Below, piece by piece: positions 28,558-38,168 of a stretch of DNA of 39,308 bases. How positions within the stretch are numbered: the stretch's first letter is position 1; each line of letters begins with the position of its first letter. This DNA comes from Acidobacteriaceae bacterium. Its GTDB lineage: Bacteria > Acidobacteriota > Terriglobia > Terriglobales > Acidobacteriaceae. Location: assembly GCA_003131315.1 (NCBI GenBank), contig PKUV01000101.1:1-39308 (forward strand), in the 5' to 3' direction. The translations under genes were made by a program, and so were the position numbers. The notes beneath the pieces were generated by a model. That model had not been told where the DNA came from, did no database searches, and saw only the letters and a program-made list of their open reading frames with translations.

Positions 28558-31500
28558 TTACTTCGCCGCGACTCTCTCCGCGTGCAGCGCCTGCAGAGCT
28601 TGCACGCGCACTTCTCCACGTTGCAGGGCGGCGATACCTTGCGCGGCGGCTCGGGCAGCGGAGAGCGTGGTAATGGTCGTGATGCGGGCGGTAACTGCGG
28701 CGCGGCGAATCGCTTTCTCGTCGAAATAAGGGTCGGGCCCGTGCGGCGTGTTGACGATCAGCTGGATGCGATCGGCTTTGATCAGGTCCACCGCGTTGGG
28801 CCGGCCTTCTTTTACCTTGTAGACGCGCTCAACCGCCAAGCCGGCTTCTTCCAGGATGTCCGCTGTGCCGTGCGTGGCCACGAGTTTGAATCCCATGTCG
28901 ACGAAGCGATGCGCGATCTCCACCACCTGCGGCTTGTCGTGGTCGGTAACGCTGATGAAAACCGTGCCCTGCGTCGGCAGTTTCTGGCCGGCGGCAATTT
29001 GGGCTTTGGCGAAGGCTTCGCCGAAATTGTCAGCGATGCCCATGACTTCTCCGGTGGAGCGCATTTCGGGGCCAAGAACCGTATCGACGCCGGGAAATTT
29101 CGACCAGGGAAAGACCGGAGATTTCACGTAGAAGCAGCGGCCCGTATCGAGATCCGTGCCGCGCTCGACGTATTCCGGAAGGAACTCGCGCAGCTTGCGG
29201 CCGGTCATGAGGCGCGCGGCAATCTTGGCCATGGGCACGCCGGTAGCTTTTGAAACGAATGGCACGGTGCGTGAGGCGCGCGGGTTCACTTCCAGCACAT
29301 AGACTTTTGCTTCGTGATGGCCGTTACCCTTCGCGCCGTTGCCGCGCGGGATCGCGAACTGCACGTTCATCAGGCCGATCACTTTCAGCGCCCGCGCCAG
29401 CTTGAAAGTGTGGTCGCGCATTTGCTCGAGCAGCGGCTCGGGGATGTCGACCGTGGGCAGCACGCAGGAAGAGTCGCCGGAGTGGATGCCGGCTTCCTCG
29501 ATGTGCTGCATGATGCCCCCGATCACGACGTCCTCGCCGTCGGAAAGCGCGTCCACGTCGACTTCAATCGCGTCTTCCAGAAATTTATCGATGAGTATGG
29601 CGCGGTCCTGCGAATACTCGACTGCCTGCTTCATATACTGCATGATGGTGTCTTCGTCGTAGGCGATAACCATCGCTCGCCCTCCGAGTACATACGAAGG
29701 ACGAACCAGCACCGGGAACCCAATCTTCTTCGCGGCTTCGACTGCCTCCTCGGCCGAGGTGACCATGGCTCCCGGAGCTTGCAGGATGTCGAGCTCCTCC
29801 AGCAGCTTCCCGAAGCGCTTGCGGTCTTCCGCCAGATCGATGGATTCGGGCGTGGTTCCGATGATGTTGACGCCTGCAGCTTTGAGCGGCAGAGAAAGAT
29901 TCAGCGGCGTCTGACCGCCGAACTGCACGATAACGCCGACCGGCGCGCCGCCGGACGCTTCGTGCTCGCAGATGGCGAACACATCTTCGAGCGTGAGCGG
30001 CTCGAAGTAGAGGCGGTCACTGGTGTCGTAGTCGGTGGAGACCGTCTCCGGATTGCAGTTGATCATGATGGTTTCGTAGCCGTCCTCACGCAGCGCGTAG
30101 CTGGCGTGGCAGCAGCAGTAATCAAATTCAATTCCCTGCCCGATGCGGTTGGGACCGGAACCGAGAATGACGACCTTCTTCTTCGCGGTGGGCGCAGCCT
30201 CGTCTTCTTCTTCGTAGGTGGAATAGAGATAAGGTGTGTAGCTTTCGAACTCCGCAGCGCAGGTATCCACCCGCTTGTAGACCGGCTTCACGCCATGTTT
30301 CTTGCGGAAGTGGCGAACTTGTTCCTGGCCGCCTTTGCCGTCCAGACGCCAAGTCCCGGCGAGACGTCCGTCGGAGAAGCCCATACGCTTGGCTTCGCGC
30401 AGCACCTCGGTGGGGATCGATTCCATCGGGTGCTTTTCCAGCTCCAGTTGCATGTCGTTAATTTCTTTCAGCTGGTAGAGAAACCACGGGTCAATCGATG
30501 TCATCTTCGCGATCTGCTTGATCGTGTGTCCCTGACGGATTGCGTACTGCACGTAGGTCAGCCGCTCGGGATGCGGCGTGACCAGCCGCTGGGTGAGAAT
30601 CTTGGGCTCGATTTTCTGCGACCCCACGCGCTTGCCGGTATCGAGCGAGCGGATTCCCTTCTGCAATGCTTCCTTGAAGGTGCGGCCGAGGGCCATCACT
30701 TCGCCGACGGATTTCATCTGCGGTCCAAGCGATTCGTCGGCGCCGGGAAATTTCTCGAACTGCCACTTCGGAATCTTGACGACCACGTAGTCGAGCGTGG
30801 GCTCGAAGCAGGCTGGAGTCTTGCGCGTAATGTCATTTGGAATCTCGTCGAGCGTATAGCCGACGGCAAGCTTGGCGGCGATTTTCGCGATCGGAAAGCC
30901 GGTCGCCTTCGATGCCAGCGCGGAAGAGCGCGAGACGCGCGGGTTCATTTCGATCACCACCATGCGCCCGGTCGAAGGATTGACGCCGAACTGGATATTG
31001 GATCCACCGGTCTCGACGCCGATCTCGCGGATCACGGCAATCGCCGCATCGCGCATTACTTGGTACTCGCGGTCGGTGAGCGTCTGCGCCGGGGCGACGG
31101 TGATGGAATCGCCGGTATGCACGCCCATGGGATCGAAGTTTTCAATCGAGCAGATGATGATGACGTTGTCTTTCGTGTCGCGCATCACCTCGAGCTCGTA
31201 CTCTTTCCAGCCGAGCACGGATTCTTCGATCAGGCACTCATGCGCGGGCGAGAGGTCGAGGCCGCGGGCGAGCACTTCCATCAGTTCTTCACGGTTGTAG
31301 GCAATACCGCCGCCCGTGCCGCCCAGCGTGAACGAGGGGCGAATGATGACCGGGAAGCCGATCTTGCCGGCAAACTCGATGCCGTCTTTCAGGTTGTTGA
31401 CGAGCGCCGATTTCGGCACGTCGAGCCCGATGCGCTGCATGGCATCTTTGAAAAACAGGCGGTCTTCGGCCTTCTTGATGGCGCCGATCTGCGCGCCAAT

Positions 31501-31863
31501 CAGAAGCACGTTGTACTTGTCGAGCACGCCGCTGTCGGCAAGTTCGATGGCGAGGTTGAGCGCGGTCTGCCCGCCAACGGTGGGGAGAATGGCAAAGCCC
31601 GCACTCGGCGACATCTCCCGCTCGACGCGAATAATCTCTTCGAGATATTCGCGGGTAAGCGGCTCGATGTAAGTGCGGTCCGCCGACTCGGGATCGGTCA
31701 TGATGGTGGCCGGGTTCGAGTTGGCCAGCACGACTTCAAACCCCTCGGACTTGAGCGCCTTGCAGGCTTGAGTGCCGGAGTAGTCGAACTCGGCCGACTG
31801 TCCGATGACGATGGGGCCGGAGCCGAGGATTAGGATCTTCGAGATGTCAGTTCTACGTGGCAT
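28558..31863 (-). CDS. carB: Carbamoyl-phosphate synthase large subunit
   Basis: 1101 residues, slightly longer than the E. coli protein. Two ATP-grasp halves are evident: the first opens [22 protein letters not shown], the second [20 protein letters not shown] from about residue 570. Each has [12 protein letters not shown] or [12 protein letters not shown], and [12 protein letters not shown] or [12 protein letters not shown]. The C-terminal MGS-like allosteric domain starts near [13 protein letters not shown]. With CarA it makes carbamoyl phosphate for pyrimidines and arginine. Its ATG overlaps the stop codon of the restriction endonuclease gene (TAATG), and only AAGAAG is visible as ribosome-binding site, so re-initiation from the endonuclease reading frame is likely. 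Confidence 0.97.
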
Positions 31864-32588
31864 TATTGTGTCTTCTTGAGAGCTATCGCCTTCGCCAATA
31901 GCGATGAGACGAAATTGGAGAAACTCAGTTCGGGGACAGGCTCGCTATATTGCCCGCGCACTCCATCGCTGCTCTTGGACATCAGGAAACAGGTTGCATC
32001 GTAAAGCCTTTCGCGAACAAGCTTCGTCAGAAGAATTTCGTAGCGCCGCGCATACGACGCCGACTTAAACTCCTGAAATACCTTGAAGTGCGGCTCTTGT
32101 GCCTTGACGGGGCGGGTGGAAGCCGGAGACTCTTCGAGCAGCATCACATAACCTAACCATGGACGCCCGGACGGCTTGAATGCCCCCTCGCGATATGCAG
32201 CCCACAGGTCTGTGGCGCTGCCCAGAGCCTCTTCCGTTCGATTGTTGTAGTTATTGCCGAATGACCCGACTTGCGACTTAAATTCAATCGCCGCGATCAG
32301 GCACCCATCCACTACCACCAGGAGATCCCATTTCTTCTCTGGCCGAAACCAGCCCGGAAGCTCGACTTGCCGCTCGCAATAGATCACAGGTTTATTCACC
32401 CCGGACTCTTCGAGCAAGTCCCGGACTAATTCGACGAATCCGTCCATTTGGCTGCCGCCGGTGACAGCAGCCCTTGCTCCGGCGTCGCGGACTCCTGATT
32501 TCGCGCCCTGCTTCTGCGCTTGAGTTTCCCGACTAGACCAAAATCGCGCGACTGCCTCTTTGAGTTTTAAATCCAGTTCAGTGTTCAA
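31863..32588 (-). CDS. Type II restriction endonuclease, XhoI/PaeR7I family
   Basis: 241 residues, the family's usual length. [19 protein letters not shown] (33-51) is the N-terminal signature. The PD-(D/E)xK core is WDLL (Asp88) and IAAIEFKSQ (Glu102, Lys104), followed by [21 protein letters not shown]. Characterised members cut CTCGAG; the specificity here is inferred from family. It starts with TTG at 32588, preceded by AGGGA 7 nt upstream, 4 bp after the methyltransferase stop. An out-of-frame ATG at 32592 would give only MLEH before a stop. Its TAA overlaps the carB ATG. It looks intact, with no frameshift and core residues present. Confidence 0.93.
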
Positions 32589-32592
32589 GCAT

Positions 32593-33588
32593 TTATCCCT
32601 GTTCCATCACGAGGACTGGGTTCGAGAAAAGGGTAGACAGTTCCCGCTGCAATCGCGCTGCTGCAAAGTTGAAATAGCTGCTGTCGACCTCGAAGTTCAC
32701 GCTGTTTCGACCACACTTCGACGCCGCCAAAGCCGTCGTCCCCGTCCCCATGAAGGGGTCTAACACCGTGTCGCCCACAAAACTGAACATTCGAATCAGC
32801 CGCGTCACCAACTCAAGCGGATAAGGCGCAGGGTGATCCTTTGTGGAGGCTCCAGTTACTCCAGACCAGATCTGCTGAAACCACTTCCGATGTTCCTCAG
32901 CGGAAATGACGCTTAGAACTCGCACGGCGCCTGACGGAGCGCGATAACCGCCCGGCTTCCTTTGCATTAGGATGAATTCGATATCGTTCTTTACCACACC
33001 ATTCGGTTCATACGGTTTTCCCAGGAAGCCGCCACCACCATTTTCCACTTCATAAGCGGCATTCGCGATCTTATGCCAAATTATCGGGGCGAGATTGTCA
33101 AAACCAATCTTGCGGCAGTGGTCTTGGATACTTGCGTGGAGCGGGACGACTGTGTGCCGTCCGTCGTTCTTTCGGCGCGACAAGCAAACATCCCCCACGA
33201 CACAGACGATCCTTCCGCCGGGCACCAACAGGTCAAAGCACTTTTGCCAAACACGGTCGAGTTCGGTAATGAATTCATCGTAGTCCGCGATGTGCCCCAT
33301 CTGCCCCGGCGCGTCCCGGTATTCCTTCAGGGTCCAATAGGGCGGCGATGTGATCACAAGGTGCGCTGTGCCCACGAGATTCCTCTTCATTTCGCGAGCA
33401 TCGCCTCTCACAAGAACATGCCGTGAGGGGATACGTTCCACAGTTTCTCGGATCAGTTTGAGCAATACCGGGTCCTTAGCCACTCTTGGAATCGCCGTTT
33501 GAAGATCGCCCAAACCGCGCAAGGCCTCTGGCAAGAAATCGGACAGATCAACGTGTTTGTCGATCTTCGGTATTGCCTGTGTCGTCAC
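32593..33588 (-). CDS. Type II DNA methyltransferase, TSPPYW (beta-class) type
   Basis: 331 residues. Motif IV is TSPPYW (residues 80-85) and motif I is DPFMGTGTT (277-285) near the C terminus, the motif order of beta-class amino-methyltransferases. SPPY is the usual form in N4-cytosine enzymes, though it does not prove the target base. The partner of the XhoI/PaeR7I-like endonuclease is expected to protect CTCGAG. The start is best placed at GTG 33588, which shares GTGA with the carA stop and has AGGAG 8 nt upstream, inside carA. An in-frame GTG at 33597 directly abuts that ribosome-binding site and is unlikely. Confidence 0.9.
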   Translation of the reverse strand: MTTQAIPKIDKHVDLSDFLPEALRGLGDLQTAIPRVAKDPVLLKLIRETVERIPSRHVLVRGDAREMKRNLVGTAHLVITSPPYWTLKEYRDAPGQMGHIADYDEFITELDRVWQKCFDLLVPGGRIVCVVGDVCLSRRKNDGRHTVVPLHASIQDHCRKIGFDNLAPIIWHKIANAAYEVENGGGGFLGKPYEPNGVVKNDIEFILMQRKPGGYRAPSGAVRVLSVISAEEHRKWFQQIWSGVTGASTKDHPAPYPLELVTRLIRMFSFVGDTVLDPFMGTGTTALAASKCGRNSVNFEVDSSYFNFAAARLQRELSTLFSNPVLVMEQG

Positions 33589-34715
33589 CGCTTGCACTCC
33601 TCCATCATCTTCACGAAGTCCTTGAACAAGTAGTGTGAATCATGCGGCCCCGGCGCCGCTTCCGGGTGGTACTGCACCGTGAACAGCGGCAAATTCCGGT
33701 GGCGCATGCCTTCGAGCGTCTGGTCGTTCAGATCGATGTGCGTCAATTCAACTTCGCTTTGCGGGAGTGAATCGGGATCGACAGCAAAGTTATGGTTGTG
33801 CGCGGTGATCTCGATCTTGCCGCTGGCCAGTTGCTTCACGGGATGATTTCCGCCGTGGTGGCCGAATTTCAGCTTGAAGGTCTTCCCTCCGAGCGCAATG
33901 CCGGTGAGTTGATGTCCCAGGCAGATTCCGAAGATCGGCTGGCGTCCCATCAGTCGCCGTATGTTATCGACCGCGTAGGTGCAGGGCTCGGGATCGCCCG
34001 GGCCATTTGATAGGAACACTCCGTCGGGCTTCAGAGCCAGCACGTCCTCCGCCGTCGTCTGCGCCGGGACTACCGTCACCTTGCAGCCTTCTCCCCGCAG
34101 CTTGCGCAGGATGTTCTGCTTGATGCCGAAGTCATAGGCAACCACGTGGAAGCGCGCCGGCTCGTCTTTTACGCCGACCACTTCGTCGGGCAGGTGCGAG
34201 CGCTCGCCCGTCTCCCACACATAGGTGTGTTTGGTGGAAACGACTTTGGCGAGATCGGTACCATCCATTTTCGGGATCGCGCGCGCCTTGGCAACAAGTT
34301 TGTCGGTGTCGTCTTCGAGCGTCGAGATCACGCCCCGCATTACACCGTAAGTGCGCAGGTGGCGCACCAGGGCCCGCGTGTCAATCTCGGCGAGCACCGG
34401 GATCCTGAACTGTTCCATGAATTCGTCCGTCACCTGCTGCGAGCGCCAGTTGGAGCTGACTTTCGAAAATTCGCGCACGATCAGCCCCTCGATGTACGGA
34501 CGCACCGCCTCGTTGTCTTCGGGATTCGTGCCATAGTTTCCGATTTCAGGGTTGGTCAGGACGACCATCTGCCCGGCGTAGGAGGGGTCGGTGAAAATTT
34601 CCTGGTAGCCGGTAATGGAAGTATTGAAAACGACTTCGCCGGAGCACTCGCCTTTAGCGCCGTAGCCTTTGCCTCGGAAGACTCTGCCGTCTTCGAGCGC
34701 AAGGATCGCTTGCAT
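33585..34715 (-). CDS. carA: Carbamoyl-phosphate synthase small subunit (glutamine amidotransferase)
   Basis: 376 residues, full length. The N-terminal domain (ALEDGRVFRGKGYGA, FNTSITGYQEIFTDPSYAGQ) is followed by a class I glutamine amidotransferase domain with the nucleophile Cys265 (FGICLGHQL) and the HxE pair in VQYHPEAAPG. It supplies ammonia to CarB. Normally carA and carB are adjacent; here about 1.7 kb with a methyltransferase and endonuclease separates them. The ATG at 34715 is clear. Its 3' end contains the ribosome-binding site and start of the methyltransferase. lepB lies 158 bp upstream on the same strand. Confidence 0.97.
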   Translation of the reverse strand: MQAILALEDGRVFRGKGYGAKGECSGEVVFNTSITGYQEIFTDPSYAGQMVVLTNPEIGNYGTNPEDNEAVRPYIEGLIVREFSKVSSNWRSQQVTDEFMEQFRIPVLAEIDTRALVRHLRTYGVMRGVISTLEDDTDKLVAKARAIPKMDGTDLAKVVSTKHTYVWETGERSHLPDEVVGVKDEPARFHVVAYDFGIKQNILRKLRGEGCKVTVVPAQTTAEDVLALKPDGVFLSNGPGDPEPCTYAVDNIRRLMGRQPIFGICLGHQLTGIALGGKTFKLKFGHHGGNHPVKQLASGKIEITAHNHNFAVDPDSLPQSEVELTHIDLNDQTLEGMRHRNLPLFTVQYHPEAAPGPHDSHYLFKDFVKMMEECKR

Positions 34716-34781
34716 TGGAACTCCTGGGAGTGGATTTTACAGATTCTAGCAGGAGAGCGAGACTGAAGAAAGGTCTCAGTT

Positions 34782-34872
34782 GTCAGGTCTCAGGTCTTAG
34801 GAAAATCAAGTGTCACGACGCCAATTTTCTCAACGTGCTCTTCCTGACACCTGAGACCTGCGACCTGACACC
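34782..34872. repeat. GTCAGGTCTCAGGT inverted repeat upstream of carA
   Basis: GTCAGGTCTCAGGT (34782-34795) and ACCTGAGACCTG (34849-34860) pair over 12 bp; ACCTGACACC follows at 34863. The pair fills the lepB-carA gap, so it lies in the 5' leader of the car operon or in the lepB 3' end. It could influence readthrough from lepB. Confidence 0.65.
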
Positions 34873-34873
34873 T

Positions 34874-35449
34874 TTATCGCAGCCTTCCCAGCTTCTCCAT
34901 CGGCCAATATCCGAAAACAGCTTTCCCGTAGATGAAGCGTTCGTTCACTGGGCCGAAGTCGCGGCTGTCGTTCGACATGGTGCGATGGTCGCCGAGGACG
35001 AAGAAGCTATTCGGTGGAACCACGACTTCGCCATAAGAGCGCGCGTCCGCGTAATCGTTGGGAACGTAGTCTTCGTCAAGCGCCTCGCCGTTCACGTAGA
35101 CCTGGCCGTTCTCGATGCGGATTCGGTCGCCGGCTACGCCGATGACGCGCTTGATGTAGCTTTTCGAAGTGTCGCGCGGATAGCGGAAGACGACGATGTC
35201 GCCACGCTGGATGGGCTCCCAGCGATAGACAAACTTGTTGACGAAGATCCGCTCCTGATCTTCGAGGCCGGGCATCATGCTGGTGCCTTCCACCTTCACC
35301 GGCTGGTAGAGAAAGATAATAATGAAAGCAGAGATGGCGAGCGAGACCAGCAGATCGCGCGCCCAGACTGCGACCACGGGCAGCGGGTGCGCGCCAGATT
35401 CTTTTGTAGCCACCGGGGTTGGCGGCTGAGGGCTCCCCACGTCAGGCAT
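34874..35449 (-). CDS. lepB: Signal peptidase I
   Basis: 191 residues from ATG 35449; an in-frame GTG at 35458 is an alternative start, and neither has a clear Shine-Dalgarno. One transmembrane segment (LLVSLAISAFIIIFLY) precedes the catalytic Ser in VEGTSMMPGL (Ser57). The general-base Lys is in SYIKRVIGVAGD (Lys100). Boxes C-E are present, including GDIVVFRYP and FVLGDHRTMSNDSRDFG. It cleaves Sec and Tat signal peptides at the outer face of the inner membrane. One transmembrane helix, as here, is common in short forms. Confidence 0.94.
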   Translation of the reverse strand: MPDVGSPQPPTPVATKESGAHPLPVVAVWARDLLVSLAISAFIIIFLYQPVKVEGTSMMPGLEDQERIFVNKFVYRWEPIQRGDIVVFRYPRDTSKSYIKRVIGVAGDRIRIENGQVYVNGEALDEDYVPNDYADARSYGEVVVPPNSFFVLGDHRTMSNDSRDFGPVNERFIYGKAVFGYWPMEKLGRLR

Positions 35450-35502
35450 CGTAATCACATTCTATCGGAAGAGGATTGGGGAGGCGAGGATTGCCAGAGA
35501 AA

Positions 35503-35666
35503 CCACCACGGAGACACAGAGGTACGGAGAAAATTGGTAATTGAGTAATTTGTAATTTGGTAATTTGAATCCGACCGCGTGCCGCACCCGGCGTCTCGGC
35601 CTTGATCTGATTGTCAAATTACCAAATTACCCGATTACCAAATTGCTCTCCGTGCCTCCGTGGTGG
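35503..35666. repeat. Composite palindromic repeat with CCACCACGGAG ends (copy 2)
   Basis: Outer arms: CCACCACGGAGACACAGAGG (35503-35522) and TCTCCGTGCCTCCGTGGTGG (35647-35666). Inner arms: reiterated AATTTGGTAATTTG (35532-35567) and CAAATTACCAAATTACC (35614-35644). The core is GC-rich. It lies between lepB and the DUF420 gene, which diverge. The remaining bases up to 35728 hold nothing recognisable. Confidence 0.8.
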
Positions 35667-37357: not shown

Positions 37358-37438
37358 CTCGACAGAACACTAACACTGACGACCGCGGGTAGGATGCCCA
37401 CATGGCCGTGGTTTTTGTCTCACGTTTACCAATTATAA

Positions 37439-37469
37439 TTGCCATTGCCAAAATAGTATGGCATAATAT
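37439..37469 (+). promoter_or_regulatory. Probable vapBC promoter and operator
   Basis: TTGCCA at 37439-37444, repeated at 37445-37450, and TAATAT at 37464-37469 give a -35/-10 pair with 19-bp spacing (or 13 with the second copy). TGCCA (37446-37450) and TGGCA (37459-37463) are inverted with 8 nt between them, a plausible site for the AbrB-type antitoxin. The AT-rich stretch contrasts with the flanks. A transcript from TAATAT would have a very short leader. Confidence 0.45.
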
Positions 37470-37473
37470 CCAT

Positions 37474-37737
37474 ATGAAGCTCAAATTGGACAAACTCGGA
37501 CGAGTGGTTCTTCCTAAACCGCTGCGCGCTCGCTACGGACTGCGTCCGGGCACGGAATTGGAAGTCAGCGAGGGGGCGCAGGAGTTTGCGTTGCGTCCGG
37601 CTCGTAGTGGCCCCAGTTTGGTGGAAATTGACGGTATTCTGGTGCATCAGGGCGTTCCGCACGGAGAACTCGACATCGTTAAGGCTATTCGCGAGGACCG
37701 AGAGGAACGTCTCCAGCATTTGAGCGGCATGGAGTGA
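37474..37737 (+). CDS. AbrB/MazE-type antitoxin (VapB-like)
   Basis: 87 residues. The swapped-hairpin SpoVT-AbrB domain is MKLKLDKLGRVVLPKPLRARYGLRPGTELEV (about 1-31); the C-terminal half is acidic and helical and would bind the toxin. ATG 37474 begins at the domain; an upstream in-frame start at 37402 would read through the promoter. The TGA stop overlaps the toxin GTG start (GTGA), the usual coupling in toxin-antitoxin pairs. It should neutralise the PIN toxin and repress the operon. Confidence 0.88.
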   Translation: MKLKLDKLGRVVLPKPLRARYGLRPGTELEVSEGAQEFALRPARSGPSLVEIDGILVHQGVPHGELDIVKAIREDREERLQHLSGME

Positions 37738-38168
37738 GGCTGTACTTCGATACCTCCGTCCTGGTGTCCCTCGCTGTCGCACATCATCCTCATCACGATC
37801 TGGCTTTCGCCGCCTTCCACCAGGTAACAACGGGTGGCCACGAGGGCTTTGTTTCGGCACACGGCCTAGCGGAGACCTTCAACACACTCACTCGCCTCCC
37901 CATCACTCCCATGGTTCATCCGACCGAAGCCTACCGCTTCGTTTCAGAAACCATCGTCGGACGCTGCGCAGTAGTGTGTCTCGTCGAAAAGGATTACTTG
38001 GCGACATTAGAGGCAGCAGCCAAGGCAGGGTTGCGTGGCGGGGTTATTTACGACGCGTTGCAGTTGCGTTGCGCGGAGAAGGCTAGATGCGACCGCATTT
38101 ATACCTTTAACATCTCGGACTTTGTGCGGATCGCGCCTCACCTCGGAAAGCAGATCGTGCGTCCGTAA
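37734..38168 (+). CDS. PIN-domain ribonuclease toxin (VapC-like)
   Basis: 144 residues. The four acidic residues of PIN nucleases are visible: Asp6 (LYFDTSVL), Glu47 (GLAETFNTL), Asp107 (VIYDALQL) and Asp129 (NISDFVRI). The fold and length match VapC. Starts with GTG sharing 4 bp with the antitoxin stop. Characterised toxins of this kind cut tRNA or rRNA; the target is unknown. No other toxin-antitoxin genes are near. Confidence 0.9.
   Translation: MRLYFDTSVLVSLAVAHHPHHDLAFAAFHQVTTGGHEGFVSAHGLAETFNTLTRLPITPMVHPTEAYRFVSETIVGRCAVVCLVEKDYLATLEAAAKAGLRGGVIYDALQLRCAEKARCDRIYTFNISDFVRIAPHLGKQIVRP

Follow-up and report, generated by a model that had tools for sequence, protein, structure and literature searches.

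The carA-carB junction in an Acidobacteriota family as a probable cargo slot, with an XhoI-type restriction-modification pair as one recurrent occupant

Introduction

The usual picture of restriction-modification (R-M) systems is one of rapid turnover. Some R-M pairs have been described at fixed positions within metabolic operons. PMC4615327 describes R-M pairs of the PabI family that Helicobacter and Campylobacter carry within metabolic operons, in the same orientation as the operon, in a putative operon with the genes for the large and small chains of glutamate synthase and also at two histidine genes; these loci are orthologous across genera, with replacement by another gene described as well. 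The same authors suggest (section 8, where defence islands are also mentioned) that R-M insertion may impose maintenance of the operon. Inserts between carA and carB, which encode the small and large subunits of carbamoyl-phosphate synthase, have likewise been reported: in PMC4619228, Pseudomonas aeruginosa and Xanthomonas citri have the order carA-orf-carB, the two open reading frames (ORFs) being dissimilar and the one in X. citri being co-transcribed with its neighbors as assessed by RT-PCR. Finally, among enzymes of the XhoI/PaeR7I type, PaeR7I makes 6-methyladenine in CTCGAG, as stated in PMC3031569.

Here we describe a type II R-M pair located between carA and carB in a member of a family of soil Acidobacteria, together with the junction that harbors it. 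The insertion of R-M genes into operons is already published, and so is the idea that an R-M pair placed between the subunit genes of one metabolic enzyme protects the operon (PMC4615327, section 8). The novel part is a slot with many occupants; a search of open-licence papers returned no description of this slot, nor of R-M genes in carAB or in operons of Acidobacteria.

Gene order and boundaries at the locus

The stretch of DNA analysed here, hereafter the window, is 39,308 nt long and represents one whole contig of a 6.0-Mb draft genome in 194 contigs. On its minus strand, the order is carA, a DNA methyltransferase, an XhoI-family endonuclease and carB, with the following features:

33585..34715, minus strand: carA, carbamoyl-phosphate synthase small subunit (TIGR01368, 502 bits, full length)
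32593..33597, minus strand: DNA methyltransferase of the N6_N4_Mtase type with a TSPPYW motif (PF01555, E=3e-36)
31863..32588, minus strand: XhoI-family type II restriction endonuclease with a TTG start (PF04555, E=2.8e-82)
28558..31863, minus strand: carB, carbamoyl-phosphate synthase large subunit (NF003671, 1648 bits, full length)
31863..33588, minus strand: probable cargo slot, occupied, from the carA stop to the carB start (bounds shared with empty junctions and with relatives that carry other cargo)

A preliminary description of the window had proposed this order on one strand, and an intact type II pair inserted into carAB without breaking it; the ORFs and the Pfam matches agree on both points, with the two R-M genes matching their families on the same strand and with carA and carB both giving uninterrupted, full-length matches. 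The boundaries that it gave (a GTGA overlap, a 4-bp gap and a TAATG overlap) are also found, the first of them provided that the methyltransferase starts at 33588. This gene has two candidate starts, that is, the GTG at 33588, whose GTGA overlaps the carA stop, and a GTG at 33597, which yields the longest ORF and a 13-bp overlap, and the former is the probable start. The 4 bp lie between the methyltransferase stop and the endonuclease start, and in TAATG the endonuclease stop overlaps the start of carB, which is the sole carB match in the window genome at E of 1e-120 or less. Elsewhere in the window, a signal peptidase gene (PF10502; 34874-35458, minus strand) lies 158 bp upstream of carA on the same strand, and a VapBC-like toxin-antitoxin pair is found at 37402-38168 on the plus strand, where a MazE-like antitoxin (PF04014, E=2.8e-8) overlaps a PIN-domain toxin (PF01850, E=1.3e-10).

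The R-M proteins

Based on Pfam and PADLOC, the window encodes an endonuclease of a known type II family adjoined by a DNA methyltransferase; the former matches the PADLOC model REase_II (E=1.5e-83) and the latter MTase_II (E=3e-60). The nearest PDB structure to the methyltransferase is 2zie (E=8e-103), while the search of solved structures returned no match for the endonuclease. Residues D88 and E102-x-K104 of the endonuclease fall in invariant columns across 17 aligned slot copies, and a methyltransferase with at least 45% identity lies upstream, on the same strand, at all of the best 80 (of 185) endonuclease loci. Damage was seen in two of the 12 slot copies fetched. These are G479 (L080), where the methyltransferase is split into two frames and the endonuclease is open, and G543 (L074), where the endonuclease has a stop at codon 39; a sequencing error is possible in both.

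We also counted CTCGAG and GAGCTC in 54 genomes, nine of which have the R-M elsewhere and were left out of the comparison along with the two damaged carriers. The median CTCGAG/GAGCTC ratio was 1.26 in 16 slot carriers showing no defect vs. 1.44 in 27 genomes without an endonuclease match (p=0.09), and hence a strong avoidance of CTCGAG that could serve as proof of specificity was not found.

Recurrence of the R-M pair at carAB

An XhoI-type endonuclease was present in 35 of the 398 genomes drawn from the family. Flanks were inspected at 31 of these loci (four of the 35 genomes were not placed), and the order carA-R-M-carB occurs at 18 of the 31 vs. none of 15 loci outside the family (Fisher p=8e-5). 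The remaining 13 family loci are not at carAB, and some of the non-slot loci are cut by contig ends; for two of the carriers, carA was seen in a longer stretch (G171) or only as a fragment at a contig end (G581). In named genomes, carA and carB flank 20 of the best 80 (of 185) loci, and the carriers bear the names Acidobacteriaceae, Terriglobia, Granulicella and Acidobacteria. Both in the window and in these carriers the R-M pair lies on the operon strand between functionally linked genes. A misjoined assembly, about which the preliminary description had cautioned and which would have placed an R-M fragment within carAB, could be suspected in a draft of 194 contigs where the window is one whole contig, but deserves practically no weight: the same order is found in many drafts, on contigs of up to 354 kb, and this recurrence refutes an artefact.

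The carA-carB junction and its occupants

Junction lengths were obtained from 120 family carA-carB pairs on one contig among the matches listed (200 genomes searched); for another 30 listed carA matches, no carB row was listed on their contig. The junction is at least 393 bp long in 77 of the 120 pairs and 253 bp or less in the remainder, the longest being 2.5 kb. A set of 108 junctions, which comprised every one of the 77 long ones, a number of short ones and relatives that include four from outside the family, was analysed further; frequencies are quoted from the 120 junctions and not from the 108. In six of the 108, carA and carB abut or overlap by one base.

Long gaps are much rarer between pheS and pheT in the same family, which we used as a control (the 30 best-scoring loci of 60 genomes, with the next long open frame taken as pheT): only three of the 30 gaps reach at least 380 bp (Fisher p=6e-8 vs. 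carA-carB). Outside the family, a draw from the phylum (60 genomes searched, 43 with a carA match) provided 25 loci among the 30 best, and carB was absent within 1.5 kb at ten of these 25; none of the 15 measurable gaps was long, all being 237 bp or less (p=1e-6 vs. the family). The slot is, however, not strictly confined to the Acidobacteriota family of the window, since the junction of G444, from a different family in this class, measures 1,878 bp and contains an IS200-like gene.

The contents of the long junctions are diverse and include IS200-like transposases (a label for which Pfam gives only Y1_Tnp), two GIY-YIG families, secreted carboxypeptidase-regulatory-like proteins, an acetyltransferase, a HEPN/Toprim protein, a glycosyltransferase and further ORFs without a Pfam match; some long junctions lack any co-directional ORF of 100 aa or more. 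XhoI-type R-M occupies 12 of the 120 junctions among the matches listed. In the non-R-M slots, 87 of the 96 cargo ORFs with 100 aa or more have the orientation of the operon strand, many of the cargoes are DNA-cutting enzymes by family, and no integrase was detected among the cargo proteins scanned. Six tandems have the secreted protein first and the DNA enzyme adjoining carB, while other tandems differ; in G171, the tandem consists of a CarboxypepD_reg-like ORF (E=8.7e-7, below Pfam's cut-off) and the R-M pair. An unrelated type II R-M system, found only once in the family, lies in the carA-carB junction of G397 from the window's own genus (L054:5045-7497). Its methyltransferase is Eco57I-like (PADLOC E=8e-111), and the 292-aa partner has a weak match to a restriction enzyme model (E=0.004) and none among solved structures.

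Accordingly, comparing the carA-carB junctions of related Acidobacteriota, as the preliminary description had suggested, reveals both a recurring four-gene order and other cargo elsewhere, and we consider it probable that the junction is, in this family, a cargo slot that often contains one to three small genes, which differ between species. Two side observations concern individual slots. L084 and L088 (G593 and G121) encode a slot protein of 438-458 aa, the G593 copy of which matched no PADLOC model and carries a HEPN/Toprim domain at its N-terminus (PF18871, E=7e-14), and short palindromic REP-like repeats were noticed by eye around several slot genes, e.g., in junctions L059, L061 and L064.

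Transcription and translation across the junction

No terminator-like site was found in 31700-35600, and the operon strand has a single promoter-like match, inside carA (34294-34267); the two matches on both strands vs. 1.4 expected are at the level of chance. Judged from these sequence features, carA, the R-M pair and carB are very likely carried on one message.

The tail of carA contains a strong Shine-Dalgarno (SD) sequence, GGAGGAG, ahead of the methyltransferase of the window. A carA-tail SD at or below -4 kcal/mol is found in 101 of the 108 junctions (median -9.3), and in the six junctions where the two genes abut or overlap it serves carB (-9.3 to -9.5). The methyltransferase can be read in frame from a start codon overlapping the carA stop in ten of 12 R-M junctions, the exceptions being G171, where another ORF comes first, and G479, with its split methyltransferase.

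The near absence of a ribosome-binding site at carB, another point of the preliminary description, is borne out: the carB of the window lacks an SD, its duplex reaching -1.6 kcal/mol against an average of -3.1 for ATGs in these loci. Duplexes at or below -4 precede carB in two of 12 R-M carriers and in 34 of 77 other cargo junctions vs. 32% of all ATGs. The endonuclease stop overlaps or abuts the carB ATG in seven of the 12 measured R-M junctions and lies 3-26 nt before carB in the other five; in G581, it lies about 210 nt before carB. For comparison, the stop of the last ORF is within 20 nt of the carB start in 43 of the 70 non-R-M junctions that have a forward cargo ORF. Since carB in the window lacks an SD, CarB is likely made there by termination-reinitiation after the endonuclease, which would not hold for every carrier.

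Descent, divergence and selection

R-M distances follow the carAB distances of the hosts (Mantel r=0.92, p=1e-4, 18 genomes), and they do so at the slot (r=0.96, 12 genomes) as opposed to elsewhere (r=-0.07, six genomes, rising to 0.45 without G453, the most divergent of the six). Purifying selection is seen in one genus, where the dN/dS values of the endonuclease (0.03-0.04) and the methyltransferase (0.05-0.06) in three g277 pairs resemble those of carA and carB (0.025-0.08). Such low values for both R-M genes (0.03-0.06) argue that the pair is functional; in five wider pairs, the synonymous sites of the R-M genes are saturated, giving no dN/dS.

The slot copies fall into three clusters of the R-M tree. 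Twenty copies, namely all 18 from the slot and those of G345 and G682, which lie away from carAB, make up one side of a branch with support 67/97, a level that allows a single origin of the slot R-M but does not prove it. The latter two copies are nested inside the slot copies, and a clade of the 18 slot copies without them was rejected (AU p about 1e-54). A lateral transfer of the R-M pair of G504 was also considered and dismissed, the tree conflict not being significant (AU p=0.186 in the R-M tree); with the host genes, the test for G504 gave p=0.105 for carAB together, 0.004 for carB alone and 0.43 for carA alone. Some lateral exchange is suggested by genus g6, where R-M distances at one and the same carAB distance show a 2.5-fold difference.

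The presence of the R-M pair on the carAB tree (108 tips) requires 11 changes for 12 carriers, the same as with shuffled labels, and a scenario with a single gain implies 31-41 losses. Using the two R-M proteins of the window as queries, no R-M relics were detected in other junctions at E of 0.1 or less. Nor were recombination tracts seen near the junction, where the stepwise identity of the window does not rise toward other R-M carriers (in an ungapped comparison, several rows of which lose register because of differences in length).

Several other cargo families were assessed in the same manner. The IS200-like and both GIY-YIG families of the slot track their hosts (r=0.71, 0.64 and 0.97, respectively), no such tracking is seen for one secreted family (r=-0.07), and cargo identity was never above host carA identity for any pair in the 13 clusters tested. 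GIY-YIG type b (junctions L062, L063, L085 and L105) was present in two of 25 relatives and confined to the slot in both. For the IS200-like cargo, the 25 relatives include two slot copies that are 74% identical, and no copy elsewhere exceeds 55% identity to the query; since the median identity of the slot copies family-wide is only 53%, these values give no more than a hint of a slot-specific IS200-like lineage.

How the slot may have evolved

The explanation that we favor, and hold to be probable as a whole, is that of a family slot in which the R-M pair is one recurrent, mostly inherited occupant read on the carAB message. Under this explanation, the pair would mostly be inherited together with the slot and would often be lost or replaced by other cargo, either by recombination within the flanking carA and carB, which are conserved, or by sorting of an older multi-gene insert. 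The methyltransferase would have taken its place behind the carA-tail SD that serves carB in abutting junctions, the endonuclease would begin at its TTG, and the carB of the window would then be translated mainly by termination-reinitiation. The benefit for the cell is probably ordinary restriction at housekeeping levels of expression, not addiction. In our reading, several old lineages reside in the slot and displace each other there. A more specific proposal, which is possible but which we advance only tentatively, is that unrelated lineages (the XhoI-type R-M, the two GIY-YIG, the IS200-like and the secreted cargoes) persist as alternative alleles across dozens of genera and are swapped via the flanking genes, with each occupant taking over the ribosome-binding site in the carA tail and CarB depending on its translation.

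Alternatively, a circulating pool of XhoI-type R-M, GIY-YIG and IS200-like genes might re-invade the junction repeatedly and independently, perhaps by a homing-like repair that uses carA and carB as arms. The scatter of R-M presence, with as many changes (11) as expected at random, would fit such insertions, as would the three slot clusters in the R-M tree, the many other cargoes that are also DNA-cutting by family and the other junctions being free of relics. We regard repeated insertion as unlikely, however, given that slot copies diverge in step with their hosts (r=0.96) while non-slot copies do not, that no pair in the 13 cargo clusters is more alike than the carA genes of its hosts, and that 25 relatives contained no GIY-YIG type b gene other than in the slot. 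It could also be that carA and carB of the family's ancestor were separated by a tandem array of several cargo genes, of which each lineage kept another subset. The tandems, six of which place a secreted protein first and a DNA enzyme next to carB (G171 with its R-M pair included), and the several cargo families that track the host are in line with such sorting; it requires, however, a long ancestral insert that was never seen whole, the longest of the 120 junctions being 2.5 kb, and several junctions in the family as well as the 15 measured outside it are tight. We deem this scenario unlikely as well.

The preliminary description had gone one step further and proposed that CarB needs translation of the endonuclease, so that loss of the latter would cost the cell pyrimidine and arginine synthesis and the R-M pair would become fixed in the genome. 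The TAATG overlap in front of a carB without an SD, and the seven of 12 measured R-M junctions where the endonuclease stop abuts or overlaps the carB start, are what such a lock would look like. Carriers would be expected to retain the endonuclease if its loss cost them CarB; yet the R-M pair is missing from most relatives, including the nearest kin. Relatives with 97-98% identical carA have other genes in the slot, no endonuclease match was obtained in the 20 same-genus genomes listed, and presence is scattered like shuffled labels. The lock therefore falls short, and fixation of the pair by coupling is not supported. Further, the spacing of 3-26 nt in five carriers and about 210 nt in one means that the lock cannot be general, and the 43 of 70 other cargo junctions that end near carB show that the geometry is not special to the endonuclease. 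In G543, despite the early endonuclease stop, carB still matches along its length. The cost would also be avoided if the whole cassette were exchanged via carA and carB, provided that the incoming cargo is itself coupled to carB. Taken together, we find the proposed lock very unlikely.

If a family slot with a mostly inherited R-M occupant is indeed the right explanation, foreign genes are tolerated in an essential biosynthetic operon, and retained there over long times, between two subunits that need joint synthesis. The natural series of junctions (empty, or with R-M, nucleases or secreted proteins) would let translational coupling and the cost of insertion be measured directly. The R-M pair itself would be a case with signs of long inheritance at one locus, contrary to the rapid turnover usually pictured for R-M systems.

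Comparison with known systems

At the level of the enzymes, the closest match is PaeR7I/XhoI: the endonuclease of the window belongs to the Pfam family XhoI as well, and its methyltransferase is an N6_N4_Mtase with SPPY (PF01555). M.PaeR7I is of the gamma class. At the level of the locus, the PabI-family systems share with the window a type II R-M pair on the operon strand amid the genes of one enzyme; they differ in being of a DNA glycosylase family and in another phylum, and the available text of PMC4615327 describes neither a slot with multiple families nor a take-over of the ribosome-binding site. P. aeruginosa and X. citri share with the window a co-directional insert between carA and carB, but in the accessible part of PMC4619228 this insert is one ORF in each species, with no R-M and no family-wide set of occupants. 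Chromosomal hotspots and defence islands likewise hold variable genes, some of them for defence, between conserved genes; what distinguishes the site in the window, with no integrase among the cargo scanned, is that it lies inside a two-gene operon and accommodates one to three mostly co-directional genes.
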